The notes under the pieces are model-generated. The model ran no database searches. It worked only from the letters and a program-made list of their open reading frames with translations, and was not told where the DNA came from. Both the position numbers and the translations under genes were made by a program. Positions 33,444 through 63,862 of a stretch of 64,000 bases of DNA are shown here, one piece after another. The stretch covers positions 310,001-374,000 of the forward strand of contig MCFL01000001.1 of the NCBI GenBank assembly GCA_002102555.1. Reading direction: 5' to 3'. This DNA is from Catenaria anguillulae PL171. Lineage: Eukaryota; Blastocladiomycota; Blastocladiomycetes; Blastocladiales; Catenariaceae. The stretch's first letter is position 1; the number at the start of each line of letters is the position of its first letter.

Positions 33444-35977
33444 CTACTCTTCACTGAACGGCTCATTCAACCACGCATCTGCTGAGCCAGAATGCAACCC
33501 GAGCCGATACGCTTTCTGCCTCAGCGCACGCACTGACGGCAATCGCCCCAGCGACTGGTCCACTGTACCCTGCGGGCCGTGTGCTGCGTGGATTGCTGCC
33601 CAATCGCGTCCATATCGCAGCACTGCGAGCCGCAGCGCTTCCAGCTCGGCGCTTGTCCAGCGGCCGCGGATATTGGTGGAGGGAGGTGGGGACGTGGACG
33701 GCACAGCCTGCTGCGTGTCAGATGAAACACCGTTGGCGCTGTGGCTGCTCAGGTTGCTCGTGTTGCGCGAGCGGCGGCGAGACCGTGGCGCAGGAGTGGC
33801 GGCAGGTGTTGGCGGAGTGGATGTTGAGGCTGAAACAGACGTGAGGTCGGCAGCAGCCCCTTCTTGAGAAAATCCTTGCTCGTGGAACGTGTGAGTGGCA
33901 AATGCCGGCGAAAACGGCGACTGCAGGGAAGGCGATTCACCATAGCCAGGCCCGTTGGCGGTAAACGTAGGCTGTGGCTGTTGTGACGTTTGATTGTTGA
34001 AGTGGTGGTGTTGCTGCATGTGTTGAAGCGGGGGTCCTGGATAGTAACTGGAGGTAACAGCACTCGTGGCGGCCGCGACAGGTCCAGCATACGACGATAT
34101 CTGACCACGTTCTTGACCAACTAACGGGGAGGGGAACGGACGCGCCGCCACGAAAGTGTCTTGAGCGAGTGACGTAGACGGCGTCGTATTCACGACGGAA
34201 ATGTATGCTTGAGAGGATGGGATAGGTGAGGGGACTGACGGCAGTGGGAGGACGCGATCCGACGCCTGACGCGATCTGTGCGAGGATTGGCTAATGTCGG
34301 ACTGGGCAGGGGAAACAAGAGCCGGGCCGAACGGTCCTGCTTCGTCGCTAGCGTCATGAGACATGTCGCTGCCAACGCCACCCAGATAGCGAGAATCAGA
34401 AGACACAACGGGTGCCGTTAGAGAAAACGGATGCGCGGCGGCGCCAAACTGATGCCAATTCGGCAGCCGCTGGGAATGCGAGTGGTCAACCTGTGGTGAT
34501 TGAGAAGAACCGTCGAGAGCGCTGCTCGTGACTGATGACAACACGTCGGATTGGTCGTCGAATGAGTGCGACTGGTCGGTTGCGGCCGCAGCTGGAGGGT
34601 TGAGCGGCGTGCCGACAAATGAGTGGAACCGTGGAAGCGTTTGTCGATGCGAGGGTAAGGCAGGGAGCTCTGAACGGCCGTGAGCATTGAAGCCAGCACG
34701 TCGCAGGCGTTCGCGGTGCATCTTGCGCTGGTTGTTGAACCAAATCTGCACATGAGACCACATTGTCAGCCCGAGTCGACTCCGGAAATGTGGGCATGGT
34801 GTAAGAGGAAGCAAGCAAAACATACAGTAATGGTCTTGTCCTCAATGCCTAATTCGCGACACAACCTTGCCCGCTCCATCCGATCGGGATAAGGCGACTT
34901 TGCGTAGCTTGCCTTGAGTGCACTCATCTTGTACTGAGCCAGCCGCCGGCGCATAACCCGCCCGTTGTCCAGCGCACCGGGTATGTGCATGGGGACAACC
35001 CCACCGTCCGGGTTGTACTGACTTGGATTCGGCGACCCGTGCTCAGTGAAATCGGGCCCAAACATTGAAAAATCGTATCCGTCATCCTCGTCAGGACCCG
35101 GGCTCATCCCCTCCATTGTGAGCTCAACGGAATCACGGCGCTGATCGCTCCCGCTTGCCGGCATGCCAACGGCCGGCGAGGTCGAGCTGCTGGAGGCGGA
35201 TGCGAGCGCATTCGTGGCGGCAGAATTCATTGCGCGCTGCACGTCGCACTGCGCAGAAGAGGAATCGATTGTGCCAGCTGCAGACGGCGTGCCTTGCCAG
35301 GGCAATGGTACTGGTATGAGCCCAGGGTCGGTTGGGTTCAAGGCAGAAGAAAGCGATGCCCAAGAGCGCACAATATCTGGGTCGGGTCGGTCCGGGCCGG
35401 TCAAATAGGACGCCTGCTGCTGCTGCTGCTGCTGCTGGTATGTGCCACCGCCATCTTGAGAAGTACGCGCACGTTTCCTTGGTGGTTCCATGGGCTCCTC
35501 CTGGTCTGTTGCGTATTGCTGATGGTTAATCGCACCCGCACCCGTAGGCGCTGGCGACAGGAAATCAACCGCAGATGTCGATTCAGAGGAGTCGCCCCTG
35601 CCTGCACTGTCAAAATGCCCGTCGGTCACATCCTGTTGGTTGCCGATGAATCTGTGCGAATGGTCGGTGGTGTACTCGTCGTTTGGGGATCCCAAGCGCT
35701 GGTCGACCGCCCGCGCAACGGCTCCGCCAGCGATCGACGGGGAGTCGACATGGCCGGAATGTTGAACGGGGGAATCGTCGCGGCAGGGGCTCGAGGTGTC
35801 ATTGCGAATCGATGGTGTGTGTTGATCTTGCAGTTGAGCAAGTGGGAACGTCTTTGACGCAAAAGATCCAACCGCCAGTTGGGCGGCAGCGGCCGACTCG
35901 GCATTTGCTGTACGAATTCCAGAAAGGCGGTGAGCAGCTGATGAGCGAGTGGTCGTCGTGTCGGCGGCGGTGGACAT
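33444..35977 (-). CDS. Homeodomain protein with C-terminal Myb/SANT-like domain
   Basis: Two exons on the minus strand, 34826..35977 and 33444..34745, give 817 residues. The intron (GTATGT...TGCAG, phase 0) cuts the homeodomain before helix 3. The homeodomain, about residues 343-403, reads RRRLAQYKMSALKASYAKSP, PYPDRMERARLCRELGI and TITIWFNNQRKMHRER, with Trp48, Phe49, Asn51 and Arg53 kept and Asn at position 50. The C-terminal 70 residues contain a Myb/SANT-like domain: RGRWTSAELEALRLAV, YGRDWAAIHAAHGPQGTVDQ, then LRQKAYRL. That is the same domain type as in the genes at 38360, 52972 and 62580. The rest is disordered, Ser/Gln-rich, with a polyglutamine run in exon 1. Probably a transcription factor. 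The fusion is unusual. Confidence 0.9.
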
Positions 35978-36045
35978 CAGGCACGCGGAAGCATCAATGG
36001 GAGCATCTTTAAATCATGTGATTGTGGGGAGGTGTCAGCCAGCCG

Positions 36046-37485
36046 TCAATCCGCACGTGGTGTGGTGACAGGAGGAGGTTGAAAAATGAAATGACAAGGC
36101 ATGGATGAAACGCGTGCATGCATTCGCGCAATTTTTCCGACGTGAGCTGCCATTGGCTGCAAGCCGTGAACATGCAAAGGATCACGGAAAAATCGCGTAT
36201 GGTGGGAAAAGGAGAGCAAACGACACGTACCGCCATAGTGATCAGCGACGTGGCAAAGACGTGTCAATGGGGCTTGAGACGCTTCCAGATGCTGTTCGGC
36301 TTGGCGGCTGCAAGAATGACTCGATGACTGGTCAAAACGGTGATGTTGCTGAGCCTCATTGCCCGCACGGACAAGATCTGCCCCTTGAAGGTCCTGCATT
36401 CCGTTTTGAGTCGTCAAGCCACGTGTCGCGTTACTGTTTGTGTTAACCAATATGCTTGTGTCCAACACGGCAGTGGGTGGCAACGGCGCGGTTGCAGCCT
36501 GCGGGCGACCGAGAGCGGTTGAATGGCCCACAGCAGCCAAGGTCGACGACGACGATGATGACGAACTGCTGGTAGCATGGCAAGTGCACGAGCATGAGGC
36601 GGAAACACCAACACCAATGGCGCACTGGGAGGCGAGGGCAATCTTGGCGGCCTTTGCTTGAGCATCAAGCACCATGTTGGCCAACGCCGACCCGGGAGGA
36701 GGTGGGCTGGTCAATTGGCTGGCAAAGGCCAAGGTCGGTGGCGGAACAATGACAGATAGTGCTTGCAAGACGCTTGCCGGCGTATCGTCGTCTGCCTGGA
36801 CTGATTGGTCAACCATCGTGGCTCCACCATCGGGCGCACGGTTGAAACGTGCCGGCCGTTTGCACTTGTGCAAGAGCTCGTCAACAACTTGGGCAATGGA
36901 GTCGACTGCTGGGCCGTATGCGGTGCCGGGATGGTCCGAATCATCGTGGTCGATAAACTCGCCCATAATCTTGAGGCAGTATTGAACGTGCGACACAAGT
37001 GCTTGACCGGTTTGGCCATTGGGAATCCCGGCCGCCGCACTGGTAGATGATCGCGGAGGAGGTGGATCTTGCAACGAAATGGATGTACCCGCAGCTGCAA
37101 TCGCACCAGCCGATGAGGTTTCCTGGGCCACGACTACCCCATCTGATTCGTGTTCATGGTCACTTTGCAACTTGGGGTTCCGGTTCCCCTTGTTGGGAGA
37201 CGTCAGCTGGCCACGTCCACCGCCACGCTTGCCTCCACGACTGCCCCGACCGCCGCGAGTGGAACCGGTACCGCGGGATTGCGTTGCTCCGGACAAAGTC
37301 GGGTTGCGATCGCTGCGTGCAACGGGCGTTTCCGAGGCACTGGGATTCGATGCGGACACATCTTGGGCGTCGGTAGGGGTATTGCTGGTTTCGGCGGCAG
37401 CAGATGGAGGGAATGTGGAGCGAGTCGGCGACTCGGCATATGTGCTTACGGCGCGCGCGGCTCGCCGAGTGGGACGGGCGCTCAT
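36046..37485 (-). CDS. Disordered RGG-rich protein with helical module (Myb-like family, no Myb domain seen)
   Basis: Start taken at the ATG at 37485 (MSARPTRRAARAVSTY); the frame is open upstream but not protein-like. The uninterrupted frame gives 479 residues. A Gly/Arg segment, STRGGRGSRGGKRGGGRG, lies near residue 80. Residues about 155-205 hold a predicted helical module, ALVSHVQYCLKIMGEFI then VDSIAQVVDELLHK, similar in spacing to the N-terminal module of the genes at 38360, 52110, 52972, 60189 and 62580. The last 70 codons may be intronic: a donor GGCG|GTACGTG at about 36228 could splice to an acceptor TTGCAG about 75 bases on, changing the C-terminus. The gene is divergent from the family member at 38360. 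Function unknown; RGG repeats suggest RNA or DNA contact. Confidence 0.6.
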   Translation of the reverse strand: MSARPTRRAARAVSTYAESPTRSTFPPSAAAETSNTPTDAQDVSASNPSASETPVARSDRNPTLSGATQSRGTGSTRGGRGSRGGKRGGGRGQLTSPNKGNRNPKLQSDHEHESDGVVVAQETSSAGAIAAAGTSISLQDPPPPRSSTSAAAGIPNGQTGQALVSHVQYCLKIMGEFIDHDDSDHPGTAYGPAVDSIAQVVDELLHKCKRPARFNRAPDGGATMVDQSVQADDDTPASVLQALSVIVPPPTLAFASQLTSPPPPGSALANMVLDAQAKAAKIALASQCAIGVGVSASCSCTCHATSSSSSSSSSTLAAVGHSTALGRPQAATAPLPPTAVLDTSILVNTNSNATRGLTTQNGMQDLQGADLVRAGNEAQQHHRFDQSSSHSCSRQAEQHLEASQAPLTRLCHVADHYGGTCRLLSFSHHTRFFRDPLHVHGLQPMAAHVGKIARMHARVSSMPCHFIFQPPPVTTPRAD

Positions 37486-38359
37486 GATGGGATTGCGGCA
37501 ATGGTGCTGGAAAATGGCTGGACGGGAAGGGGGCACGAGCGATAGCAGAGATTTGAAGAGAGTGACAATGGGCAGTTCAAATGAAGGTCGGATACAAGAG
37601 AGCAGAAGAGTGCAGCGGTTGTGTTGTGGATGTGACAAAGAGAAGGGAGAGAGCCGACATGTAATCCCGTGTTCCAAAGTGTTACGTGGGCTGAGACAGT
37701 GGGTGGTGGAAATCATCAACACATCATGTTTCGGCATGGATTGCGAGCTCAACATCTCTGGAAGACAAAGACGAATGGTGAAAAGTTCCTGCCTTGCACC
37801 TGTGCTGCGCCAGCATGCATGTACCCGGATCGTTGTCAGCACGGCCAGACCCAGCAGTTCCAGTTGCGGGATGCCAGGGCTGCATTTCAGTCGTGAATTG
37901 CAAGCAAGGTGGGAAGCACCCAACTCAGTGGATTGATTGGCACCAAGCTCCCAGGAGAACAACACCCGCGACGGACCTCAACAATACTGTAAGTATGTTC
38001 AGTCTGTCCCAACAGTTGATATTATAGCCTCGAGAGCAGAGCATGTTCCCACAATACATCTCGAAGCAATGATAAATACTTGGAAGTATTGTTGTCTTCG
38101 AGCATATGAATACAATTTGGTTGGACACGATCGATGCACATCACTGGCAGACGCGGTTGAGCGATTGCTTGATAATCGCATCAAGCTTCCAGTGATGGCA
38201 TATGTACTTACTACTATTTTGACACATCGACGTTCGCATGTATATGTGAAGGTGGTGAAGGAAGGTGCCCGTCCTTTTTTCTCTCGCAAAAGTCGGCTTC
38301 AAAGGGTCATGTTGCGTTCTGGGCATGTAGTTCTCTCTCTGCTAGTTCCCTTTCACACG
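37486..38359. promoter_or_regulatory. Divergent promoter region between two related genes
   Basis: About 870 bases lie between the start codons of two family members on opposite strands. Reading frames extend into it from both sides (to 37965 on minus and 37937 on plus), but the encoded residues lack the composition of either protein. Confidence 0.45.
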
Positions 38360-39979
38360 ATGCATGCACCGTTGATGGACAAGACCGACCTTCGGCAACA
38401 TTCGCTGCACCTCGGTGCCCCGTCATTGCTGCCATTGGAGCGGGCAAGCTGCCAAGTTGGCCTCCTCGTTTCCCCGCCGAGCAGCAGCTCCTTGCTCCCC
38501 GATAGCTCCAATCCCGCTGCGCGAGACAAGATTGCTTCGGCAGTGCAAGTCGGCCTGTTCGGTTCCCCGCTCGCAAGGGATTCAAAATCGCCTCACTCGC
38601 ATGTGCTCTTTGGCGCAGCACACAGCACAGTGTCGGCAAAGGTACCTGCAGATTTGTGGGCTGAATCACGCATGCACGTCGAGCCTGTATCGGTGTGTGA
38701 GGCGTCAGTGGCGTTGGTGGACGAACTCGAGCTGGAGGTGCCAAGCAAGGACCCAACTGGAGCAGCCGCAGGAGGTATGGTCGCGAGCGCTCAAAGCGGC
38801 CACTGGGATGTCCGAAATCCGTTTCAACCGCTCGAGTGTCCAGCAAATCCGCTCCAAGCGCTCCTGTCCCTCTTGGATGCCAGTTCAATTCAAGTCGCCA
38901 AACAGATCGAGTCGCATAAAGACTTCTCTGCCGCATCCGAATCAGATGCTGCTCAGCTGCTCGACATTGGTACTCGGTTATGCTCGTTAGCGAATGGGCT
39001 TCTTGGTAAGGGGCACGATTCGACAAGTGTGCCAAGCCCTTCTGCTGCAGAAGCCTCGGACATGGACGTTGAACAACTGCTTGTGGACCAGTCGCAAGAA
39101 CCCTCGACGAGCGTACTGTCCCCAACAGTCGCAGTCGAGGCGTCGCACGAGTCGAATGCTCCCCGCTCGACTGTTGTCCACATCAACCCACCAATTGCTG
39201 TGCCCCTGTATTTTATGTCGCCGGTACCATACCCATACTTGGCGCATGCTGCCGCCACCGCGAATCATGAAGCCGCCCTAGCAACACAAAATGTTCCGAA
39301 CTGGATTCATCATTCCGCTCATACTCCCAGCCAATCCCAAGCTATGGTCGAATCGGGGTCAAGCACGACGTCAACACAGCGTGGTGCAACCGACATTGCT
39401 GAAACCTTCGGAATCCGCTCACCCCAGCCTCCGCCGCCGCTCCCACCACCGCCGTCATCCGCATCCGCCATTCCCTCTCCTAATTCGACCCATCGTCCTA
39501 CTCCGCCTCCCGACGCGGGATATACGCCCTCTTCCAACCGTGTCCGCGGCCCGCGCTCGGCCACGCGGCGATGGACACCGCTCGAGTACGCAACGCTCGA
39601 GCGCGCTGTCACTACCTTTGGCCGCGCCTGGTCTGTGATCATGCTCGCACATGGAAAGGATGGTCGCGTGGACAAGGCGCTCGCGCGGTTTTCGGCAGCG
39701 GATTTGCAGGCCAAGGTCGAGTACGAGGTGCGCAAGAAGCGCAAGGCTGGGTGGACCGATGAGCAAATTGGCGTGTTTGCAACGGCCAGGCCGGGCGTGA
39801 GGGGACAGGTGAGTAGTGCGAGGTGGGACGAGATCAGGGATTACGCGAAGCAGCTGGATGCGGAGAAGAAACTGGCCAGAGCCGAACGTGACGGGGATGA
39901 GCTCGTGAACGCTCCTGAACCTATCGCAACGCTGTCCAATGATGCCGATTCTGAGGATGATAGCATCCATGTAGATTAG
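38360..39979 (+). CDS. Myb/SANT-like protein with N-terminal helical module
   Basis: A single exon; I chose the ATG at 38360 (MHAPLMDKTDLRQHS), giving 539 residues. A second ATG lies five codons on. The helical module at residues about 162-215 reads NPLQALLSLLDASSIQVAKQ then a helix ending LCSLANGLL. The Myb/SANT-like domain at about 403-460 reads RRWTPLEYATLERAV, FGRAWSVIMLAHGKDG and LARFSAADLQAKVEYE, with a basic RKKRKAGWT following. It is preceded by a proline run. The architecture (module, disordered linker, one Myb-like domain) is shared with the gene at 62580. Probably nuclear and DNA-binding. The gene ends 91 bases from the stop of TRM732. Confidence 0.8.
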   Translation: MHAPLMDKTDLRQHSLHLGAPSLLPLERASCQVGLLVSPPSSSSLLPDSSNPAARDKIASAVQVGLFGSPLARDSKSPHSHVLFGAAHSTVSAKVPADLWAESRMHVEPVSVCEASVALVDELELEVPSKDPTGAAAGGMVASAQSGHWDVRNPFQPLECPANPLQALLSLLDASSIQVAKQIESHKDFSAASESDAAQLLDIGTRLCSLANGLLGKGHDSTSVPSPSAAEASDMDVEQLLVDQSQEPSTSVLSPTVAVEASHESNAPRSTVVHINPPIAVPLYFMSPVPYPYLAHAAATANHEAALATQNVPNWIHHSAHTPSQSQAMVESGSSTTSTQRGATDIAETFGIRSPQPPPPLPPPPSSASAIPSPNSTHRPTPPPDAGYTPSSNRVRGPRSATRRWTPLEYATLERAVTTFGRAWSVIMLAHGKDGRVDKALARFSAADLQAKVEYEVRKKRKAGWTDEQIGVFATARPGVRGQVSSARWDEIRDYAKQLDAEKKLARAERDGDELVNAPEPIATLSNDADSEDDSIHVD

Positions 39980-40070
39980 GCACGATACTCAAGTGTTTTT
40001 GGCTGGTTGCTGTATGTGTGAAATACAATGTCTATTGCTAAAGCTATCTGTCAAGTCTATACAACATGGC

Positions 40071-43000
40071 TCAAGCAAGGAAAAACTGCTCGGCAACCGC
40101 CAATACTTGTTCCTTGGTAATCCCGGGCTCGGATGCATCAAACAAGAACCGCAGTGTCGTCAAACTGACGTTCACATCTTGCGAATCCCGTCTTCCAGTC
40201 TCAATGTTCTAGAGCATGATACAAGCCGCAGAAAAGTCAGTGACGTGAAGTGGTAGCAGCCAGAGATTCCCAGTCACGACGTACCTTTACTGAATCAAGC
40301 AAGTAGCTGAAACTCTCGACCTCAGCCTCAATTTGCCTCATTCCCCACGCTACTGCAATCGCTTCCCGTAATTGATCCTTGAACAAGTTTGGATCCTCCT
40401 TGTTGAACAACCCGTCTTGTCTCAGCTTTCCTCCCGTCAAGGCTGGAACCAAATACTTGTGGAGCGTTTCCCTCCACAAGGGCTCCACGACATGCCTCAC
40501 GGCCGCATCGCCCGTGACCATCTCGACGAGCCACCGCATCGCGCACGGCAGCATGGCCGAGTTGTGCACAGCACTACCGCCAGTGGTGCCAAAAACAACG
40601 TTTGCCAGTGCTCGCGTTGCACCTTCGCGCACGTCGTCGTCGTCGTCCTGCACAAGCAACGTGGTCGCAACCCAGACAAGCCTTGCGAGGGCCGCTGATC
40701 CGGCAACAGCGCGCACATGTGCCAGCCCTTGTGTCAAACTGGCGGTGCACCCTTCGCGAACAAACAGGGGCTCTTCGGGTTGCGACCACTGCGTGAACAC
40801 GTCAATGTAGGTTGCCGCGACGGTGGCCGAGCCAATGGCGGCTTTTGCGAGTGAGTGAATGAGCGGCACACGCAGGTTGAGTGCGACCGAGGCTGGATCG
40901 GCTACAAGGCTTAGAAGGTGCGCTGTTGGCAGGCTGTGGCCGGCGTCGACCAGGATCTTGGTGCGCAAACCGGTACGGGGCGCGGATGGGTCGAATAGCA
41001 CGTCAGTGACTTGTGGAGAGAGTGGGAGCATTCGTACCAGAGCGCCCGACTCAGCGTTGGCCAGGGTTTCAAGCACAAATGAATGAATCAATGGGTCGCG
41101 CTCTTGTACGAGGAGAACATCGAGGGCGCCGGTATCCGATCCGAGGAGCATGGCTTCTGCCAAGCGGGACTTGACGAGCTCGTAACCATAGCCGGTCGGA
41201 ATCCCTTGGGAATACCACTCGCTGGCGACCCTCGCAAACTGCTCACCAACCACCATAGTCGCCACCTGAATGGCCACGGCCTGCGCGTACGGGCTCGCTC
41301 GAGACTGCCGCACGTACTCGACCAACCGCATGACCATGTCCCTTGCTGGGCCATGGCTAACGGCGTCCTGGCCCATCACGGCCACGGCTGCACCCACCAA
41401 ACTTCTCACATACAGCACGCTTCCGTGGACGCCATTGTGCCCATCGCCCTCGACCTTACCCCGTACCAACTTGTCCACGACCTCCACAGCGCGCTGCACC
41501 AACCTTTCCCTCTCCACCATCGCAACCAATGCCTCGGCTGCCACCTCCCTGACCTTCCAAACAGCACTCGCCAAACACTTGCCGACAAGCGCCTCAAACT
41601 CGGCACCCAACACCGACTGGTCCTCGCTCCCGCCGACGGCCGGCGACGGCGCCATGCGTGCCAACACCACGAGTAACGGGAACGCCATCCCTGCGCCAAC
41701 CACCTCGCCACGGACATGCTCGACGGCCGCCCGCAAATGCCTGATGAGCGCCGCGTGCAATTTCGGATACCGCAAGAAAAACTCGCGTCCCGTCAACCCA
41801 CTCGTGCGATCGCCCTGGCCGGCGCTCGCGCGCGACCCAAATACACGCGTCAGCAAGTTGGAGTGCAGCATGAGTGCGCCATTGCGCACGGCCCAGTCAC
41901 TGTGGTGCAAGTGTTCGAGGGCAAGCAAAAGGGCAGGTTCAATGTACGCGGGCGTGTCCCGCGCCAGGTGCCGATCGTCGAGCAAGCGGCGCAGCGTGTT
42001 CATGGCGTTGACTTTGACGGTCGCGTCGGCCGTGGATGACGAGTTGGCGAGTTGGAACAGGGTCGACATGGTGGTGGGCAGAAGGTAGCGGGCGTGCTGG
42101 GAGGTGAGCAGGGCTAGGATCACATGGGGAAGGCCGCCGGACCGGCGTGTGACCGAGTAGTCCGAGTGGGCTACGGCAGTCAGGGCAGACTGCATCCAAG
42201 TGTCCAAGTGCGCCGAGCCAACTGATTGCGTGAGCGTGTGTGTGACGAGGACAAGGTTTGGTTGCACAGCACAAAAGGCGCCGCGGTGCCTAATCGAGAG
42301 CATGAGCGAGATAAAGTGGGTCCCAACGGTGGCGAGAAGTGGCTCATAGGACTATGTTCACATGAAGAGATGAACGTCCAGACATTAGTTTCGCTTGTAA
42401 GCCGAGACGATGCGGAGGATGACAAGCATACCTTGGCGTCAACACGTTCAACAACGACACCCATTAAATCACACGCATGCTTGACAACTCGCCACGAATA
42501 CGACAAAATCAACTGACTTGCCGCGCTTGCCTCGTCGGCCCCAACTTCGTCCTCGGCGTCATCCGCACGTACGTCCTCGGGCAAGTTACCCTCTGGTGCA
42601 TCCTCGGTCAGCACTTGCAAAACGGCTTGAGTGGCCTCTTGACACACACTCGCCAATTCATGGATCCATCGCTCGGGTGCATGCACATGTGAAAAGATGA
42701 TTTGCAGGGCAAGCAGCGTGCCGGGCAATGGCGACGCTTGCGCCGCGGTCAGCAGGTTGGACTGGGCGCCCTTGGTCTCGTTGACAACGGTCGCAATGAG
42801 CTCCTGAATGAAATACGCTGCAACACAGCAACACACCAAGTGAGGTTTGAATGAGTGACGCAATAAAAACAACACATCATACGTACATTGCCTCTCTTGG
42901 CCCGCCGCCCTCACAACCACGTCCCACAAGAGCGCGCCCGCTCTGGCCTCGCTTCCCCTCACACTCGCCACCTTTTCCTTGGCCACACGCAAAACTTGGT

Positions 43001-45290: not shown

Positions 45291-45559
45291 ACCAGCATCA
45301 AGATAAAAGGCACGTGCACGTGATGCGTCGCCATCGAACTCGATCGGCCCACAGCACACCCCGCCGCCAACCTATAGTGCAGGCAAAGGGCGAGCCGTCG
45401 TCCGTCACAAGGTCTGCCCTGTGCTGCAACGAGCGTTCCGGGCCGTACTCTTTATTCCCATGGAACCAAGACGCTAGCTATAGCTAGTCGACTGCAAAGC
45501 ATGTGCACCCAAGATCAAGAACGGAAAAATGGATGCGCACCATGTCCTTACGAGTAGAA

Positions 45560-46513: not shown

Positions 46514-47047
46514 GAAAGGAGGATTTGGTGGGCCAAGCAATCCACTTGAATGGACGACAATGCACCTTTCAGTTTTGGATTGGCCGCGGCAAATCGAGTC
46601 GTGTGTGGAAGGTCTTGCTGGTGAGTGAGGGCAGGCTGTGGGCAATGTACGTTGCCATTTCAAACTTCTGCCTGTACTGCACATGTGCATGGATTGATTG
46701 ATTACCAATAAGTCAACTCACACATACTTATCCACATGGATTCCTTTTTCTTTTTCCAGGCAGGAAGCTCGTCGCAACTGCAAGTAACAGTCATGATCTG
46801 GTCAAGGGTCATTCCCATGTGTTTTGTCTGGCTTCTGGCGCTCGAAAGCAAATAAAAGACATTGGTGCTGGATAAGATGCTCTTGGTTCTGGGCCTTGTC
46901 TTGTGCTTCACCCGTCTTCATCCGTAACAAATGAACAACTTTCAAACAAAAGCATCTTTGCGTTGATGTTTGTTAGCCCATGCGAGATGTCCATTTATGC
47001 ATTAGGCTGCCCATCGTACGGGGCAGCGTATTGAACGACGAGCGAAA
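46514..47047. other. Intergenic region
   Basis: About 530 bases between the decayed gene and the stop of the racemase gene. AT-richer than its surroundings. Nothing else is seen. Confidence 0.5.
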
Positions 47048-51344: not shown

Positions 51345-52109
51345 TGTGTTGTGATTGCTTTTGTGATAGACTCATGATAACATCTTTTTTGCTAGACTGG
51401 TTGTTTTTGCTGGCACTTTTCCGGAGGCGATTGGCTGTGTGATTGCGTGCACGTAATTTGCGACACCCAACACATTGATTGCACACCTGCCATCATGCGT
51501 ATCTTGATGTATTTCATGGAACGACGTTTGGTAGACACTATGCATCTTCGGTGTGAGGATCCAGGTCTCGTTCAGGTTTGCACCAGTGAAGTCGTCCATG
51601 GCTGGTGATGGGTGACGGGTGTGGCACCATAGCGAATACATGCAACTGGTAGGACGCGTCTGAGCCGAGCATGTGAGAAGGAGCGTGTCTACCCCTTTGA
51701 TATGGTGATAGCATTCGTGGCCATGGAAATGGGTGTGAGTGGTGATCCCTGCAAGACGTTTGAGTTCTTTCGGTGCAGTGTCGCGAGGATGTGATCAAAG
51801 TTTGAGCGGCATGTCTCGCGACCAATCGCTGGCTGTCTCACGAATCCCTTTCGCGCAGACAGCCTGGAACGTTACAGGTCTTTGGGTTTGCATGGGCCAA
51901 CCTCGGCGCCTTTCGGCAGACTCGCTCGACGTCGTCCCATCACGAGGGGCTCACTGGCTCAGGATGGGATGTGTTTGGTAAGGAGAGCCGGCTGAATCAG
52001 CGCGGCTTTAAATGTCGTCCGCCCCCCCCTTTTCGACTTTGCAACAAATGCCAACCTATTGACTTGAAATACCTACACCCCAATTACGTTCACGAAAAGG
52101 CTGATCGTT
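51345..52109. other. Intergenic region
   Basis: About 765 bases between COG7 and the small family member at 52110. A run of seven C lies at about 52023. No reading frame I would support. Confidence 0.5.
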
Positions 52110-52880
52110 ATGAATTCCCACCACCACCCGCATCGCTCAGCGCCCATCAAGTCAACCCACCGTCCGTCCCCTGCAATTGAAGCCATGGTGGCTGCCATTG
52201 AAGACCATATTCACGCGCTTGCAGAATACATTCAAGTTGTGTACGACGGAAATGCGAACGCGGCTTTGGATGCAACCGTTGTAACACGGCTTGAAGCAGT
52301 CTCCGAGCAACTCAGTCAGCTCGTCGCTCCAAGTCACCAGCAGCGTGTGGCGGATCCTGCAACAGCTGTACCATCTGTCAGCCCTCCGCCGGGATATGTC
52401 CGAGTGCCCGTTGTCCGTTTGGGTTTGATTCGACTTTTTGCACCACCAATTCCCACGTCTGGCCGTCGACATGATTCTCACCACCAACAAGGTTCCGTTG
52501 CGGAATCGCCTCGCTCGGTCTACAAGCTGCCAGCTGCAGCGCACCAGTCGGGCTCATCTCCTCCAAAGCCAAAACCTATTGTGCCGGCAGACCACGTCAT
52601 TCGTGAGACACCAGCACCGTCGGTCGAATTGCCCCAACAGCCAACTAGCCATTCTCAATCCTCTTCATTCAAGCCTCCTTCTACACCATTCTTCCCTGGC
52701 GCTTGTGTGACAAAGGCCGCGGCAACAGTTGCGTTCAAAGGCAAATCAAGGAGGAAACCGCGTCCGCCTCCTCTTCAAGCATTGGCGAGCTATTTGGCAA
52801 TAGGTCCGCGGGTCGCGGTCGGAGGAGCCGACAGTGATGGCTACACGGCATACCGCCATGAGGGGCATGTGTCGCGGTGA
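52110..52880 (+). CDS. Small protein with the helical module only (Myb-like family)
   Basis: A single frame of 256 residues from the ATG at 52110 (MNSHHHPHRSAPIKSTH). Residues about 23-75 form the helical module, AIEAMVAAIEDHIHALAEYI then VVTRLEAVSEQLSQLV, aligned with the start regions of the genes at 52972, 60189 and 62580. The rest is Pro/Ser-rich with a basic stretch FKGKSRRKPRPPP near the end. No Myb-like domain is present. The stop codon overlaps a good donor (CG|GTGAGT), but only about 90 bases remain before the convergent neighbour's stop at 52972, so a further exon is unlikely. If the module pairs family members, this short form could act as a regulator; that is speculation. Confidence 0.6.
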   Translation: MNSHHHPHRSAPIKSTHRPSPAIEAMVAAIEDHIHALAEYIQVVYDGNANAALDATVVTRLEAVSEQLSQLVAPSHQQRVADPATAVPSVSPPPGYVRVPVVRLGLIRLFAPPIPTSGRRHDSHHQQGSVAESPRSVYKLPAAAHQSGSSPPKPKPIVPADHVIRETPAPSVELPQQPTSHSQSSSFKPPSTPFFPGACVTKAAATVAFKGKSRRKPRPPPLQALASYLAIGPRVAVGGADSDGYTAYRHEGHVSR

Positions 52881-52971
52881 GTGCTTTGAAAGCGAGTAGT
52901 ATTGGTCACTGTTCCGCAATCATGAAAATATCGATATGATGAGTGAAAGAATACACACTGTGCGAAACCTG

Positions 52972-54899
52972 CTATACCATACTTGGACCTCCATCCTTGC
53001 AAAGTGTGTCTGTGCTCGGAAGTTGGTCCCCATCATCCAACCTTGGCCGCTTCCTCGGGCTCCCATCCGCCTCCAATCCAGCACCGTCCCCTCCTTGTGA
53101 ATCCTCTGCATCCTCTCCCTCTATATCCGTCATATCATCCCCGTCGCCCATCAACTCTTCCACATCTTGCGGATCACCAGGCTCCCCCGCTTCACTGGCG
53201 ATTCCATACCCCGGGACGCCTTTTTCCGCCAACATTCGCTTGATCTCGGACATCCTCGGATTACACCCGCGCAACTCATTATACCACTTGAACCTTCCCT
53301 GCTTCAACGTAAATCTGGCCAATCGCCTAGACTCTGTACCCTCGGGCCCATGCAGCTCCCAAATCTTGGGCAGGCCGCGATGCCCACCATGCTCGACCAC
53401 CTGCGCGAACAAGAAATCAATCTCTTCGGGTTTCCAAATGCCGCGTGCGCCTCCGCGACCGCGCTTCTTGCGCGCCGTCTGGTTGGGCTGCGACGAGATG
53501 GGATACGCGGCAAGCAGTTCGGCCTCGGTCTTGTGCTTTTTCGCATTGTGCCATTTGGCTTGCAGTTGCGTGGGGGTGAAGCGGGCAAGTGTTTGCGATT
53601 CGGTGCCGGCGAGGCCGTGGAGCTCGTGAATCAACTTGAATTGGGTGCCGTAATTTGCGACCTGCTGGCACAAAAAGTCAAACTCATTGTCGGTCCAGCG
53701 GCCAGATGCAAGGAAACCGGAGGCGTTGTCGTTGTCGTCGTCGGCGCTATTGGCCTCATCCATCGCCGGTGCCATCGGCACCAGGTTCTCCAACTCTGGT
53801 CTCTGCTTCTTTGCATTGTGCCATTTCGCCTGCAACTGCGTCGTCGTGAACCGTGCCAACGTCTGCGACAGCGTCCCCTCTGGCCCGTGCTCAACCCAGA
53901 TGCGTTTAAACTGCGTTCCATGCATGCCACCTGCTGGCACAGAAACTCAAACTCGTCGTCCGTCCACAGCTTGAACCCCTTACCGAGCGCAGCAGCAGAT
54001 GCGGCGGCGGCCGCTCGTTGCTCGTCAAAAGCCTCGCCAGCACGTGCTGCCTTTTCCGTCCATTCGGCCGCGTCGGCCGCGCTCATGCGCGCGAGCCCGC
54101 GGTGCCATTTCGCAGTGAGTTGCGTCACGGTGAATTCGGCAAGCTGGCGCGATTCCGTGCCGGCCGCCCCGTGCAGGTTGTATATGTGGCGGAAACGAGG
54201 ACCATACTTGGCAACTTGGGCCAGCAAAAGCTTGTACTTTTCGGCGGTCCACACGGCTCGTTGCGGTTGCGGATATGAGGAAGACGATGATGACGAGTGG
54301 TTGGATGATTTGGGCGCATTGTCCGGTCCCGCAGTCGTGTCGATGTTGGCGAATATTGCAGGGGTGCCTGGTGGTACAACTGTGCCGGGCGGGACAATGA
54401 CCCATGACGGGATACTTGATCGCTTCGCAGAGACGGTTGAGAGTAATGGCGACGGTTGTTGAACGTTGTTGGCCGCACCAACGCGAGACGACGATGACGA
54501 CGATACATCCGCAGACGATGAGGACAAGAAGGGGGACAGTGGGAAAGAAGCTGGGGAACCCGCAGGGCGAGCCAATTGTCGTAAAATGTGCATGACTTTG
54601 CCCAGTTTCATTTTGTCCGCGTCGCACATGGCTGTCGCAGGATCTGCTTCCGTCAATGCAAAGTAGTCGACGAGCAATTGGGACGAGTCTTGGAGCATGT
54701 CTGTGATGGCCACTATTGGGTTTGGCACTTGCGCTTGGTTCTGCCGTTGTGTATGGGCATCATTGACAGTCGTTGCAGGTGTCGTGGCTCCCGATGAAGC
54801 AAAAAACGACACACCCACGGGGGAGGCAGGGCTGATTGGGGAAGGAGACATTGCTATGATGGTTGGTGGATTCATATTGCTGAGTGCTTTGACGTGCAT
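52972..54899 (-). CDS. Four-repeat Myb/SANT-like protein, with apparent 1-base deletion
   Basis: Minus-strand gene starting at 54899 (or an ATG at 54875). The helical module at about residues 57-110 reads NPIVAITDMLQDSSQLLVDY. Four Myb-like domains follow: VWTAEKYKLLLAQVAKYG with LHGAAGTESRQLAEFTVTQ; LWTDDEFEFLCQQVA with HGPEGTLSQTLARFTTTQ; RWTDNEFDFLCQQVANYG with LHGLAGTESQTLARFTPTQ; and IWKPEEIDFLFAQVVEHG with LHGPEGTESRRLARFTLKQ. The frame breaks inside domain 2 near 53917-53925: frame 1 runs into nonsense after QQVAC, while the correct continuation (HGTQFKRIW) is in another frame. Adding one base makes domain 2 the same length as domain 3, and the whole 642 residues. Basic stretches KKRGRGGARG and PRKRPRLDD suggest nuclear location and DNA contact. 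Confidence 0.85.
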
Positions 54900-55473
54900 G
54901 CGTGCATAAATACATGTGAATAGAAATTATACTGTGAAGAAGGGCAAGGAGAGAAGCGACAAGTCAAAAGAGAATCGAGCGATCTCAGAATGACCAAACA
55001 ACAAAAAAAGAAAAAGAAAAAGAAAAAATAAAGCCCTTTCCAGACAGACTTCTTGATTGTTGTTTGTGCGTCTTCGATGTTGTTCGTCCTGTTTTCCTTC
55101 CCATCGAGTCACGTGCAATTCATCATGCGATTGCCTGCTCCGAGTCTCTGCTATTCTTGGGTGAGAGCTTGAGCTCATTTTTTCATGGCGGAAATATTTA
55201 GCCCCCCCACAGTAGTGAGACCTCGGCAACCCACACTGCTTGATTCTCATGACCAGTATATACTGTAGCATCAGAGTCTTGAGTTCGGACGAGTTTCGAT
55301 CTCTCTCCGCTGCCGTGGATGACGGGGCAGGAGCGCTGGGGACCGCCTCGCAGAAGAAAAGGGATGCCATCAAGTCATGTAGGCACAAAGAGCAAATAGA
55401 GCGATGATTGGAAAAGAAAAGACACGGCAACCGGCAAAATGGCACACACACCCAATACGACAATACGACAAGC
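54900..55473. other. Intergenic region
   Basis: Promoter of the four-repeat gene plus the 3' UTR of methionine synthase. It contains an A-rich tract with regular G interruptions at about 55001-55031. Nothing else is seen. Confidence 0.5.
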
Positions 55474-58400
55474 TTAATGGTCCTCAACATCATAATTCAG
55501 AATGGGTGCCAACCACCGTTCCACCACATCCACCGACATGCCCTTGCGGCCGGCATAATCCACAATCTGATCCTTGCCAACCTTGCCCACGGCGAAATAG
55601 GTCGAGTCTGGGTGGGCAAAGTACAGGCCCGAAACGGCGGCCGCTGGGTACATGGCGAGCGACTCGGTTAGCTCGATACCTGTGTGCTTGGAAACTTGCA
55701 GCAAGTCCCACATGGTGCGCTTCTCGGTGCTATGCAAAAGAAAAATAGGGCAAATGTGAGAACTTGACAGCCATCAATAACAGAGATGAGTGGCATGAGA
55801 ATCGTACTGGTCAGGTTGACTCGGGTAACCGGGCGCGGGCCGAATGCCCTGGTACTTGATGGCCAACAAATCCGCTGTATCGAGCTTTTCCTCGGCAGCA
55901 TATCCCCACCACTCTGAACGCACACGCGCGTGCAAATCCTCAGCAATGGCCTCGGCCAACCGATCTGCCACGGCCTTGACCAAGATGGAGTTGTAATCGT
56001 CCAATTTGGCCTCGTACTCCTTGGACAGCTCCTCGGCGCCAAACACGGCCGTTGCAAATGCACCAACGTGGTCGCGAATGCCCGTGGATTTCGGGGCAAT
56101 GAAATCCGACAGGCAGTACGTGACATCGAGCTCCTCTTTGATGGCTTGCTGACGCAACCCGTAAAACGTGGCGACTTGCTCGGTCGGATTGGCCGCGTCA
56201 AAAACGTGAATGTCGTCACCGACCGAATGTGCGGGCCAGAACCCAATGATGGCTTGCGCAGTCAGCTTGCCCGACTGGATGAGCTCGTGCATCATCTTGA
56301 CGGCGTCGTCGTATAGCTTCTTGGCCTCCTTGCCCACATGCTCGTCGTTGAAGATCTTTGGGAACCCGCGGTTCGGGAACCGGCCGCGCAGTTGCCATGT
56401 TTGGAAGAAGGGGTTCCAATCAATCTTGTCGAGCACCGACATGAGGTCGTAATTGTCGAGGACCTTGATGCCACTAACGGCGGGTGCCGCTGGGACTCGT
56501 GCCGCGTCGGTCCAATCAATCTTGAACTTGTGGTCGCGCGCCTGTTCGAGCGAAGCATACTTCTTATCGCGCAAGCCCTCGTAATGCTCCTCGCGCAGCT
56601 CTTCGTACTCTTCGGCAATGGACTCGATGTAGTCGTCGCGGACCTTTTCGTCCAGCAGTTGCGAGACAACCACCGTGGCCTTTGACGCATCGAGCACGTG
56701 AATGACGGGGTGCGAGTAGCGAGGAGCAATTTTCACGGCCGTGTGCTGGCGCGAGGTTGTGGCACCGCCAATGAGGAGAGGCACAGTCAGGTTACGCTCT
56801 TGCATCTCGCGGGCAACGTGTACCATTTCGTGCAGCGAGGGAGTGATGAGACCAGAGAGACCAAGGGCAACCGCATTGTGCTCGACGACTGCATCAAGGA
56901 TCTTGTCGGATGGCACTGTTTTGAATCGACATGAGGTGAGCTCGAATTCGAATCGTTCAGAGACAATAAGGAAAGGGCATACCCATGACCCCAAGGTCCA
57001 CCACCTTGTACCCGTTGCATCCGAGCACGACACCGACCAAGTTCTACAAAAAGAGCAGTGGACCAAGTCAGAGATGATCAGCACACGCAGCCAAACATCT
57101 TCATGGGGATGGAGAGACAGACCATACCTTGCCGATATCGTGCACATCTCCCTTGACGGTCGCCATGACAATGACGCCGTTATGCGCCTCCTCCAAGTTT
57201 TCCATTCCGAGGGCCGCCTTCTCAGCCTCCATGTACGGAATCAAAATGGCGACCGCCTTCTTCATGACACGTGCCGACTTGATGACTTGCGGCAAAAACA
57301 TTTTGCCCGCGCCAAACAACTCACCGACCTTGCCCATGCCCGCCATCAACGGGCCTTCAATGACGTGCAGCGGGCGATCGTACTTGAGCCGCGCCTCGTC
57401 CACATCGGCCTCCACATACTTGCCGTCGCCATGGACGAGCGCGTGCATCAGACGTGCCTCGACCGACTCCTTGCGCCACGCCTCCTCGTCGCCCTTTGCC
57501 TGCGTAGCGCCCTTGCCCTGGCGCTGCGCATACTCGAGCATGCGCTCCGTCACGTCCTCGGACTTGTTCCAAATGGCCTCCTCGCAAAGCTGCAACAAGT
57601 CCTTTGGGATCTCGTCGTACACGGGCAAGTGGCCCGCGTTGACAATGGCCATGTCCATGCCCAGGCCAATGGCGTGGTACAGGAACACCGAGTGCATGGC
57701 CATGCGAATGGTTTCAAAGCCACGGAACGAAAACGACAGGTTGGACAGGCCGCCGGAAATCTTTGCTCCGGGCAGCTCGGTCTTGATGCGCTTCATGACA
57801 TTGAGCACTTCGACTGCATAGTTGTTGTGCTCGGCCATGCCCGTGCAAATGGTGAGAATGTTGGGGTCAAAGACAATGTCGTGCGGCGGGAACCCGACCT
57901 TGTCGACGAGCAAGTGGTAGGCACGGTGGCAGATTTCAAACTTGCGGTCCGTATCGACGGCCTGGCCCTCCTCGTCAAATGCCATGACAATGACGGCCGC
58001 GCCAAACCTCTTCACAATACGCGCCTTGGCCAGGAAATCGGCTTCGCCTTCCTTGAGCGAAATCGAATTGACAATGGCCTTACCCTGCGTGCACTTGAGA
58101 CCCGCTAGAATAATGTTGAAGTCGGACGAATCAATCATGAGCGGGACACGGGCAACGTCGGGCTCGGTCGATTGCAAGTTGACAAATCGGGTCATGGCGG
58201 CCTTGCCATCGAGCAGCGCCAAATCAAAGTTGAGATCGAGCACTTGGGCGCCGTTTTCGACCTGGGAGCGGGCAATCGCCAGGGCATCTTCGTAGTTGCC
58301 GTTGGCAATGAGACGAGCAAATTGGCGAGAGCCAGCGACATTGCATCGCTCACCAACATTGATGACTAGAGAGTTGCATGCTTGAGCGTGAGTCAAGGTT

Positions 58401-59581
58401 CAATGATCGGGGGATGGATGAACCGGAAGTAAAAACGTACAGCCAGACGTGGCTGCATTCAAGGGTTCGAGACCCGACAACCACATGTTCTGATCCAACT
58501 GCGCCTCTCCCTTTGCGGGCCGCTTCCTGGGCTTCATCTTTTCCAGCGCCTTGACCATGGCCGCAATGTGGTCTGGGGTCGTCCCGCAACACCCGCCCAC
58601 AATATTGACAAGCCCGCTCTTTGCATACGACACCATGCTGGCTGCCATGGTCTCTGGCTCCTCGTCGTACTCGCCAAATGTGTTGGGCAACCCGGCGTTG
58701 GCGTACACGAGGGCATACGAGGGCGTGAATGCGGCAATGGCTTCAAAGAAGGGCTTCATTTGCTTTGCGCCGAGCGCACAGTTGAGCCCAACAGCCAAGG
58801 GCTTGGCATGTGCCGTCGAGATGACAAATGCTTCGCCCGTTTGGCCAGAGAGCGTGCGGCCAGACTGGTCGACAATGGTACCCGACACGAGCACAGGGAC
58901 GCGCGCATAGTTGTCAAGGTCAAAGAGCTCGTCAATGGCGTACAGGGCGGCTTTGGCGTTGAGTGTATCAAAGATGGTTTCGACCAGGAGCACGTCCGAC
59001 CCGCCATCGAGCAGGCCGCGGGCTTGCTCCTTGTACGCCGTAACGAGTTCGTCAAACGTCACGTTGCGGAACGACGGGTCCGTGACCGAGGGGGAAATGG
59101 ACAGCGTGCGGTTGGTCGGGCCAATGGCGCCGCACACAAATCGGGGCTTGTGCGGCGTGAGTGCAGTGACTTGCAAGGCGACCGTTTTCGCAATCTTTGC
59201 GGCCTCCACGTTGAGCTCGTACGCCAAGTGCGACAGGTCATAGTCGTCCTGGGCAATGGTGGTGGACGAGAAGGTGTTGGTTTCAATAAAGTCGGCGCCC
59301 GCGTCCAAGTACTGGCGGTGGATGCCCGCGACCGCGGATGGGTGCGTGAGGACCAAGACATCATTGTTGCCGACGAGGTTCTTTGAGTGATCCTTGAAGC
59401 GCTCGCCGTGGAAGTGGTGCGGCTCGAGCTTGAGGCGCTGGACCATGGTGCCCATGGCACCGTCGAGGAACATGATGCGCTCGCCGAGGGCGCGGTCCAG
59501 GTACTCGGTGACATTGCCGACCGGGTGCGACCGCAGCTGCTCGTCCGTGAATGCTCCTGGGTGGTATTCGTGTTGGGTCAT
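55474..59581 (-). CDS. metH: Cobalamin-dependent methionine synthase
   Basis: Five exons on the minus strand, 58441..59581, 57128..58365, 56983..57043, 55808..56915 and 55474..55729, give 1267 residues (human MTR 1265). Domains in order: homocysteine domain with zinc Cys in VGLNCALGA and [11 protein letters not shown]; folate domain starting [16 protein letters not shown]; cap; B12 domain with [12 protein letters not shown], where His789 is the cobalt ligand; and the AdoMet activation domain with [20 protein letters not shown] and [20 protein letters not shown]. The enzyme moves the methyl of 5-methyltetrahydrofolate to homocysteine through methylcobalamin, so the organism must take up B12 and have a reductase. 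No domain is missing. A 61-base exon encodes the strand around VVDLGVM. Long antisense frames opposite are shadows. Confidence 0.98.
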
Positions 59582-60188
59582 GGTGGTGCCGTTAGAGTGA
59601 CTGGGATTGCATCGAAATGGGATGATGTGTTGTGTGTCTCGCACAAACACTAAACACTGGAGTAAGGAGAGGGAGGGAGAGAGAGACGGGTGACCCCGCG
59701 AGACACTCAGAGTCTCTGAAATCCATTCTGCTCTGCTGTGTGCTGTGGGAACGCCCACAACGGCAACACAATCACTACGCCAAATGCCACGAGGCCCATT
59801 TTTCATTCCTCGCAAGTGATCGGCGGCCAGGAAAAAGTGAATCACACCATCAGCCATTTGGCTTGCGGAGCGCGTCGCGTCATGAGGCTGTGGTCAAGTT
59901 GGATCAAGCGACCAACCCCCGCGCCCGCCTGGATGGGTCCAGCTCAACAAGTTATCGCCCATGATACAAACATATCCATGGTACAACCAACCACAATAAA
60001 TATGTACATGCATGTCATCAATCACCTGTCTCAACCCGCCATCTCCATCTGATCCTCTTTCTTGATTCACGCACATGGCCGGCATTCTCTACATACCAAA
60101 ACACAGCCCAGGTGTTCTGTTCAAGCCATTGCCTAAGTGCAACGGCGGACGAGTTCAGACTGTGCGCTCCTTGCGTATGCGCATCCAA
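59582..60188. other. Intergenic region
   Basis: About 600 bases upstream of methionine synthase; also the 3' UTR of the next gene. I looked for but cannot define a cobalamin or folate responsive element. Nothing else is seen. Confidence 0.5.
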
Positions 60189-62028
60189 CTACCATTTGCG
60201 AGCGAGCGCGATTTGATTCGCTGCGGGCTGGGCCGGCGCAGGAGCCAGCGGGGCCAGAGGCTTTGAATGCAGGTGCTTTGCTGGCTGTGCGCGGGTCGGC
60301 TGCGAGATTGATGGTGCGGGTGGTGGTGGACGTGGTGCGATCGAGAGGGAACGTGCAGGTGGGGTGGGCAGCCGATTGGCAGAAGAACCCGCTTCTTCTG
60401 TGTGAAAAGCCTTGGTTGACGCAACAGCTGGCGGGCGAGCTAAGGGATTTGCAAATGAAGTCAATGGGCCTGTAGCGAGATGATGAGCAGCGGACGAAAA
60501 GGGGGGCGCTGCTTGAGTATGTGGATGCAACGGTGCGTTTGATCTAAGCGCTGGTACTGGCTCAGTGCCCAGTCCTGCGTGAAGATATGGGAATCCTGGT
60601 ATGCCAGCGGCGGTCGGCAAGGTGCTGGGTTTGGGAAAAATGGGCCGGAGTCCCGTCGGCCAACTGGCCGCCGCCAGTGCCTCCTCATGCACCCTGATGG
60701 TGGATCGACGTGACTGGGTCTTGCTTGCCCCGGCATCGGCAATATCTTCGCGTTTGACGACCACCCCTGACGCAGCCTGCGCGCCGGCCATCTTGGACGC
60801 CTCGATTGCGGCTGTCGTAAGCGACAGTTGACGTGTTGATTCCACCGTGTGCAACGCTGCAATCCAGGCAGGGATTGGGTTGGTTGGGGTGGCGGTGCCC
60901 GCATCGCTTGGTGGAGGGATGTGGAATGAGGAGATGGGAACATCACAGGGCATGTACATTGCGCCGCCCGGTGGCACGGGCCATGTGACGTGACCCGAAG
61001 CCGGGGGCGCCGGATTGTGGCGGCGAGCAGCCCCAGCAGGCTTTTTGCCAGCCGGGTCGGCTGATGCACCGCGCACCGTTGGCTTTCTTTGCCGGTGTGC
61101 CCGCTCGTTACGTGGTAATCTTGGATCGGCTGGCTTTGGTGGTGGAGCGCTTGACGACGTTTGCGTAACATCTTTGTGGTGCGAAGATTGTATACGTTGA
61201 TATGATGCGTCGGCTGCTGATGCCTGTCTGGAACAACAGAGGAGCAGAAGTGAGAATCCAGGCGTTTGCGGCGACTGTCCCAAAAACAAAATCAAAGAAA
61301 TGATCGCACCTTGCGTCTGTTGTTGACGTAAACTTTGGAGTGGGCTCTTCAAATCGAGCACCGGTTTGAGCCCCACGTCCCTCTGTGGCCTGGCTCCATG
61401 TCCTCTTTTTCCCTTCAACCAAATCCACTTCGCCTTCCGCCGTATCGGTCGCATCCGCTGTCGCGCTCGCATTTGCACTTGCTTTCGCACCTGGTCTCGC
61501 ACTTTCAAGCGCACCGCTACCCGAACTGGCAACCTGCAACAGGACGGCAAAAGTCGACGCGAGCTTTTCGTAATCGTCCTTGCCGACATGAGCGGCGGCC
61601 AATCCTCCAACCAGGCACAAGTAGTCAATGAGCGTGGATGTCGAATCCTCGAGCATGTCGACGAGCGCCGAAAGGGGTGTTACGGGCAAGTCGGAACTGG
61701 AACCCTTCGCCGCGGGTAGCTTCGCCGTCGCAATGGCATCGCGTTGAATCGGTCGTGGCGAAGCGCCACCGATCAGGGTCGCTTGCGTAATAGTGGTCGT
61801 GGCCGAGCCAGCGGGGGTGAGTTTTCCCGTCAGGAGTCGACGGCGCTTGACGATGAATTGGGATTGTGATGCTGCGTCTTCGACTGCGCATGGTGGATCC
61901 TTTGGGGTTGCACTTTCAGGAGGTTGAGGCTGTCCATCGAATGCTGCTTGGACGCTGGTCATGGCGTCGTCTGTGAGGGGCCGCTGAATCCTGGTTGTAG
62001 AGACCTGACTTGTCTGGTTGCTTGCCAT
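60189..62028 (-). CDS. Protein with the helical module, no Myb-like domain (family member)
   Basis: Two exons on the minus strand, 61310..62028 and 60189..61227, give 585 residues (donor GTGCGA, acceptor TTCCAG, phase 2). I chose the ATG at 62028 (MASNQTSQVSTTRIQRP). A basic patch IVKRRRLLTGK lies near residue 60. The helical module at about 112-165 reads TPLSALVDMLEDSTSTLIDY then KLASTFAVLLQVA, closest to the modules of the genes at 52972 and 62580. The second exon encodes a Pro/Ala/Ser-rich region with RRSTIRVHEEALAAA but no recognisable DNA-binding domain. It lies between methionine synthase and a one-domain family member on the same strand. Function unknown. Confidence 0.72.
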
Positions 62029-62579
62029 GGTGATGGGCGACGATATAGGCCATTTCAAGAGCGGTCCTCTGGCATACAATGGGATGAATGCTTGGCAGGC
62101 GGGATCCAGGTGAGGAGCGAGAGCTTTCGCGTCAATCAAGAAAGCGTGAAGCCTTCTCCCATTGCCCACAAGCTCACGTGGAGAACAATATCATCACGTG
62201 CAAATGGTCGGATGGGCCGTTTGTGACTTTGTCATGGGCTAGCGAAAGGTCAAGGCAAATGCTCAATGGGCTATCGACGATGGCCTAGGTGAAGATCATG
62301 AAGGTAATGCTTAGCGACCCAATAAGTGCGTGCGGACAGGCAACACGGAACGGGCTGGACGCGTTCGACTGCCGTGGAGCAGTGTAGAAGTGACTCATGT
62401 CATCAGGTGTGTTGAGTGAGGAAAGTGAGGACGGAAAGCGGATGCAACAAAAGACATGTTGGCAGACGTTTCAGGAGAATAAATGGATGGCAATTAGACA
62501 AAGAGCATACAAAATACACCAAAGAGAAAACATGGCTTGAAACAAAAAGTCGTGGAGGGAAAAAGCAAGGCGGACGACG
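62029..62579. other. Intergenic region
   Basis: Promoter of the gene at 60189..62028 and the 3' UTR of the gene at 62580. A/G-rich on the + strand near 62480-62570. Nothing else is seen. Confidence 0.5.
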
Positions 62580-63862
62580 TCACACATCATCCATGAGTTC
62601 GTCCTCCTCTTCGTCGTCTTGAGCCTCGGACATGTGCGCATCCTCCCAGGAATCCGCCTGCAACCCAAGTGCCGATGCTCCTGCACCGCCACCGCGGCTC
62701 ACGGGCGTGGTCGCGCCGGACGACATTCCGACCACCTCACTCCCATCCACGTCCGCATCTGCCTCGTCCTCGCGAATCTCGCTCACATCACCGACATCCA
62801 CGGCCGACTCGGCCTTGTCCGCTGCGGCCGCCTCCTCGCCCAACAACTTCTTCTCGGGCAACCGCGGCAGGCCACTGCGCTCGCGTTTTGCGCGCTCATT
62901 GGCCCACTTGTTTGCCAAATGCTTGACTTCGAATCGCTTGAATGTTTGCGTAATGGACCCCTCGGGCCCGTGCAAGCTCATGATTTTGGCAAAATTGCGG
63001 CCATTCTCGAGCACTTGCTGCTGCAAATACGCCCACTCGGCGTCGCTCCAGCGAATCAAGGCGGTGCGTGGGCCGCGCGCCTTTTTCGTGACCTCGCCGG
63101 GACCGAGCGTGGATCCGCCCGCAGGCGATGTGTGCGACGACGACGAGGGTGACGACTTGAACGAGGGCTTGTTGAGAATGGTCCCCGCACTCAGCGAGCC
63201 CTTTGGCTTAGGTCCGGTTTGCGGCCGGGCTTCTTCTTGCCAGTGCTAGCGGCGGCACCCTGGTCATTGTCAATATCGTCGCTGCCACTATGCGACCCGG
63301 CACCATCTGCATCGTCGTGCATGCTGTGCATATTGTGCATACCTGCCCCGCCAGCAGCTTGCATGCGAATGTGCTGGTCGTACTCGTCGAGCTCTTGCTC
63401 GTCAATCCCGTTGAGCTTGGCCAGGTGGCGCACGGCTGCAGCCGTGAGCGTTTGTTCCTGTTTGCCCTCGGCAGCGTTGAAGACGACCGTCAAGTGCTGG
63501 ACAATGGTGGCGACCTTGGCACGATCCGATTCGGCAATTCTGCCCGGCTGCAGCGAGTTGGTGAGCCGCAGGTACTCAAACAGGGCGCGCGCAGAGTCGT
63601 GGAGCATGTCGATGATGGCCGATACCGGTGAAGAGGGAATGCCTGAGGCGGTGAGTGGGGCTGGCGTCAGCCCGACAGCGGCAATGGCGGCAGCAGAGAC
63701 TGCGGCTGCAGGCGAAGTCGACGACGACGAGGTCGATGTCGAAGCTGACGATGGGTTCGAGGACGAGGGCATGGGCGGGGCGCCAAAGACGAGGTGGGTC
63801 CTGGAAGCGGTGCTCGCGGTGGCACCTGCACCTTGGGGCGGCTGCTTGGTAGGGGTGTTCAT
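62580..63862 (-). CDS. One-domain Myb/SANT-like protein with AT-hook-like linker and apparent 1-base deletion
   Basis: Starts at the ATG at 63862 (MNTPTKQPPQG). The helical module at about residues 75-128 reads SPVSAIIDMLHDSARALFEY then KVATIVQHLTVVF. An acidic linker leads to KKKPGRKP, where the frame ends six codons later (near 63211-63218). One base on, the frame continues GPKPKGSLSAGT and then the Myb-like domain: LIRWSDAEWAYLQQQV, NGRNFAKIMSLHGPEGS and TFKRFEVKHLANKWANE. Inserting one base yields 427 residues and an AT-hook-like GRKPGPKPKG at the join. The acidic C-terminus ends DEEEDELMDDV. Probably a nuclear DNA-binding protein. A good donor-like site (GCAG|GTATGC) lies upstream, but no acceptor gives a sensible protein. 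Confidence 0.8.

Follow-up and report, generated by a model that had tools for sequence, protein, structure and literature searches.

A 64-kb window of the Catenaria anguillulae PL171 genome (C1:310001-374000 of 41 Mb; positions below are those of the window unless a contig is named) carries a cluster of genes encoding Myb domains with a long loop. Catenaria anguillulae is a blastocladiomycete fungus that forms zoospores. The reading we favor, at a probability of about one half, is that these domains form a Catenaria-restricted, locally amplified Myb set of the Tbf1 structural class in which the recognition helices have been rewritten. The window holds seven copies of the long-loop Myb in four genes: A (33444..35977, minus strand), B (38360..39979, plus), C (52972..54899, minus), which has four repeats, and D (62580..63862, minus). 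Searches of the organism's own genome added a fifth clustered Myb gene, F, which lies 7.6 kb outside the window, beyond its end, at C1:381609, and a dispersed Myb locus, G, present on both C33 and C58 with 99% identity over a 69-residue query. Five of the six family loci found fall inside 38.3 kb of contig C1; the locus count is a lower bound, because own-genome searches score only the best candidates. A first-pass annotation of this DNA had joined seven genes, each with a Myb-like domain, a helical module or both, in one family. Its Myb half is real, with the domain present in four of the seven genes (33444, 38360, 52972 and 62580). One or both parts occur in five (A to D and E, at 60189; the module of B is suggestive), whereas the genes at 36046 and 52110 carry neither at significance, so that a single family of seven is not supported. 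A clustered, diverging set was nevertheless borne out, and protein database searches, at limited sensitivity, matched only Catenaria proteins.

The copies recognize one another. In hold-one-out searches, profiles built each time from the other seven copies recovered all eight full-length Mybs (E 4e-23 to 3e-12; 4e-16 for gene A) from a file of 4306 open reading frames (ORFs) that covered the window plus other loci, most of them retrieved because they had Myb hits. The eight were six window copies, F and G; repeat C2 of gene C, which is split, was excluded. In pairwise comparisons A pairs with G (E 1.8e-11) and B with F (E 8e-20), the repeats of gene C match each other, and D groups clearly with none. 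The tree supports B with F (88/84) and repeat C1 with repeat C4 (87/85). Three helices in an AlphaFold model and matches to Pfam place the domain in the Myb/SANT superfamily: Myb_DNA-bind_6 (PF13921) matched the 52972-53940 ORF at 28.2 bits (cut-off 22.9) and, among nine single domains searched at E up to 1, PF13921 matched five and PF00249 six.

The spacing from the tryptophan to the lysine or arginine of the third helix is 48-50 residues in eight family copies, as compared to 37-39 in five ordinary Mybs that this genome also encodes. The first-pass annotation was thus right that the long insertion sets the domain apart from ordinary Mybs, but the same spacing is 48 and 49 in budding- and fission-yeast Tbf1. 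Among the 59 PDB sequences matched by the family profile, only the two yeast Tbf1 proteins were matched over the whole domain, and the AlphaFold model also aligned best with them when Foldseek matches were re-aligned with VIA-align. The family shares with Tbf1 (budding-yeast TBF1, 8x6d; fission-yeast Tbf1, or 'trf1', 6k5u and 8ynu) the Myb fold, the long loop between helices 2 and 3, the W-to-K spacing and a GPxG motif in the loop. Because loop and predicted fold match Tbf1, the supposition that the domain is of an undescribed kind is not supported. Related Mybs also occur in canonical teloboxes of the same genome (contigs C2/C87, C403/C207 and C138/C428). The one on contig C2 has a spacing of 48 and HG..G..LARF in common with the family; those on C403 and C138 have shorter loops, with spacings of 42 and 45. 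We therefore class the domain as a long-loop Myb of the Tbf1 type whose recognition helix has changed.

The change in the third helix is complete at the positions that matter for telomere reading. Human TRF1/2 is reported to read bases with three residues of this helix, namely lysine, aspartate and arginine (PMC8867601). Third-helix residues were matched up by hand on the basis of an alignment; for A, G, B, F, C1, C2, C3, C4 and D in turn, the family has R, H, Q, S, T, Q, Q, R, A at the lysine position, Q, A, A, S, A, A, A, F, N at the aspartate position and Y, L, E, S, H, H, H, Y, A at the arginine position. The three residues are therefore kept in 0, 0 and 0 of the nine repeats, in which the family differs from Tbf1, as it does in having a gene with four repeats. 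In contrast, the lysine just after the aspartate position is invariant (nine of nine). The five telobox rows compared (contig C90 not among them) keep K, D, R and the following lysine, and the canonical teloboxes of the genome differ from the family in retaining LKDKAR. The Tbf1 rows have the pattern V/QLKDKxRN, known as the telobox signature; the family lacks this signature and its base-reading residues. With its telomere-reading residues replaced, the set has the look of DNA-binding proteins that are being turned to new uses.

Several observations weigh against an affinity with Tbf1. The top whole-sequence PDB score went to the two-repeat Trichomonas MYB21 (E 8.4e-9), through two short segments of positions 3-27. 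Once the loop was excised, the family (seven of nine rows) compared equally well with ordinary Mybs (E 2.3e-10) and with teloboxes (E 1.3e-10). The tree sets the canonical teloboxes apart (98/99) without joining the family to them, and two long-branched ordinary Mybs fall inside the family. Finally, the other canonical teloboxes of the genome have spacings of 42, 44 and 45, as against 48, 48 and 49 for the contig C2 telobox and the yeast Tbf1 proteins. Since the loop-free helices are equidistant, the tree separates the teloboxes and the other teloboxes are shorter, what ties the family to Tbf1 is the loop together with its surrounding fold. Possibly, an ordinary Myb family gained a Tbf1-like loop independently, with a third helix (T..QL..KW) that is plain Myb; the loop-free comparison and the tree, which does not nest the family within teloboxes, fit such convergence, as does the resemblance of the third helix to TPKQCKARW in an ordinary Myb of the same genome. 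However, convergence would have to account for an agreement both in loop length (48-50 and 48-49) and in loop sequence (HGPxG...LxRF in the family, YGPGG...LKxR, and HGQPGG..LARF in the genome's own telobox), and the structure comparison, which used a predicted model, ranks Tbf1 first. We regard convergence as doubtful, though a serious contender, and common descent with Tbf1 as fairly probable.

A second question is whether the domain binds DNA at all. The Myb of TERB1 is likewise of the telomere type, has the same three contact residues replaced and is reported not to bind DNA (PMC8867601). TERB1 is a meiotic mammalian protein, and the comparison with it covers the contact residues. With TERB1 as a guide, the family could have acquired either a new specificity or, like TERB1, a protein-interaction role in place of DNA binding. 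The absence of the three contacts from all nine repeats and this precedent favor the latter, but the adjacent lysine is invariant, and the four tandem copies in gene C and the homeodomain fusion in gene A are arrangements that would be common in DNA binders; we consider loss of binding rather unlikely. That the array is decaying, its recent duplicates losing function, seems improbable. Repeat C2 is split between frames, and, of the differences between the alleles of G (L017/L018) across 430 codons, 16 fall in codons whose amino acid is altered and 4 are silent (ratio 1.38); yet 15 of the 16 fall outside the Myb domain of G and, C2 apart, the domains lie in long open frames and are strongly alike. 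Domestication of transposon Myb/SANT domains could produce local multiplication with no relatives found elsewhere, but the nine domains match seven Pfam families at E up to 1, none of which is among the Pfam Mybs that count as transposon type, and this origin is hardly credible.

The set looks lineage-restricted from the sequences compared. Searches of 5.8 billion proteins matched only Catenaria (one among 8000, one among 8000 and one among 65 scored candidates), although distant relatives may be missed because these searches require shared five-residue words. In the literature on Blastocladiomycota Myb or telomere proteins, on Tbf1/telobox proteins and on Catenaria Mybs, as judged by the titles listed, no such family appeared.

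The second part that had been proposed, a helical module, was firmly found in three of the seven named genes (52972, 60189 and 62580, that is, C, E and D) and is suggestive in 38360 (gene B), but is unsupported in 36046 and 52110. The three firm modules find each other in hold-one-out searches (E 1e-7 to 3e-9). Both parts occur together firmly in two of the seven genes (52972 and 62580) and suggestively in 38360, the module lying N-terminal of the Myb in C and D, whereas E has the module alone and A the Myb alone. Neither the proposed module in the 36046 ORF (36046..37965, minus; module about 36856-37017) nor that in the 52110 ORF (52110..52880, plus; module about 52167-52331) was among the twelve best matches of the three-copy profile. 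The 52110 stretch appeared only at E 22 in a single hold-one-out search and at E 17 when the profile held four copies, and an alignment of the two stretches compared with the module core gave E 0.028 at a probability of 1.8%. In its own genome the 52110 sequence found only itself; the 36046 stretch matched itself and, weakly and in part, three other sequences, each time outside the module part. Six module stretches compared with Pfam yielded a single match (E 0.096, in one of the six) and nothing useful, and the three-copy profile found nothing below E 0.75 among PDB sequences. The first helix of the three firm modules is amphipathic relative to shuffled sequences. This feature is not specific, because the first helices of the unsupported 36046 and 52110 stretches are equally amphipathic (8 and 1 of 2000), and, also against pairing by the module, in all three firm copies the second helix is no more amphipathic than chance. 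A module-like stretch in the 1855-residue, low-complexity ORF between the window end and gene F (L015:512-6076, window about 64512-70076, minus) was not found by the profiles; when the first 1359 residues of this ORF were compared with Pfam, nothing matched at E 0.1 or lower. A candidate VPPG linker motif recovered only its two training sequences below E 1. On these comparisons, the module is small, without known relatives and present in at least three genes.

How the two parts might work together can be outlined. The Myb domain would descend from a Tbf1/telobox-type protein, canonical forms of which persist in the genome; it would still dock on DNA via the third helix and the invariant lysine, but read sequences other than telomere repeats, the copies having diverged in their targets. 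The N-terminal module may pair the proteins in C and D, perhaps also in B, and so fill the place of the TRFH dimerization domain in TRF proteins, and gene E, in which no Myb was found, could then serve as their partner or compete with them. Most economically, the module would pair the proteins and the Mybs would position them on DNA, gene A joining its Myb to a homeodomain instead. The proteins would be nuclear, and they are likely to be transcription or chromatin regulators rather than telomere caps. The fullest version, in which a telomere-reading Myb was freed from telomeres and multiplied, its helix rewritten in each copy and a large dimerization domain swapped for a small module, to give an undescribed family, is tentative. 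If true, the cluster would be a natural series showing a telobox acquiring new DNA targets. With several recognition helices borne by a common scaffold and canonical teloboxes in the same genome, it would allow the route from telomere reading to other functions to be tested in a fungus that branched early. Should the loop be convergent, a Tbf1-type loop would have arisen a second time.

Fungal duplex telomere-binding proteins have been reported to gain and lose telomere roles (PMC7952879). The fungal tandem-Myb proteins Tay1/TayL2 are described as likewise having more than one telomere-type Myb per protein, and the Mybs of TayL2 as divergent and not predicted to bind TTAGGG (PMC7952879). Compared by description, TayL2 differs in having two or three Mybs, and the passages describing it mention no helical module (PMC7952879). 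The TRF-homology domain (PF08558) was found neither in ten window ORFs nor in the genome, but control genomes gave none either. Four tandem copies of TTAGGG had no match in the assembly, whereas three of TTGGGA had 13 exact matches, some overlapping, at 9 places genome-wide. We make no telomere claim for TTGGGA, because the five of the nine places that were checked lie inside their contigs.

Gene C, deposited as BCR44DRAFT_26899, has its module at 54561..54722 (minus; hold-one-out E 1.1e-7), followed by Myb repeats C1 (54081..54251), C2 (53782..53966, split over two reading frames near 53930), C3 (53500..53706; PF13921, 26.7 bits) and C4 (53275..53442), all on the minus strand. By eye, the deposited model appears to cross the C2 frame split (53915-53985) by a 20-base skip and to stop within C4. 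Gene D lies in two overlapping open frames that probably make one protein, with the module at 63470..63634 (E 6.9e-9) and the Myb at 62883..63053 (both minus). Gene E (60189..62169, minus) has its module at 61522..61680 (minus; E 2.8e-9), and the family profile found no Myb domain in it. In gene B, the possible module (38843..38998, plus; hhalign E 0.0028, probability 11%) precedes the Myb (39563..39781, plus). A C-terminal stretch there resembles the genome's canonical teloboxes, but alone it reached only E 6.2 and is not significant.

In gene A, Pfam Homeodomain scored 27.7 bits (cut-off 22.9); judged by eye, an 80-base GT..AG intron (about 34746-34825, minus) interrupts the homeodomain. The long-loop Myb is C-terminal (33492..33665, minus; AlphaFold model with a predicted local distance difference test score, pLDDT, of 92.7). 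The homeodomain ORF (34766-35977) sits at the edge of the Myb cluster and has a long-loop Myb as its own C-terminus. As for the dispersed locus G, its copies on C33 and C58 look like two haplotypes. Near-identical loci are carried by the paired contigs C33/C58, C2/C87, C232/C455, C138/C428 and C90/C122, and the sequences suggest that the assembly retains both haplotypes in places.
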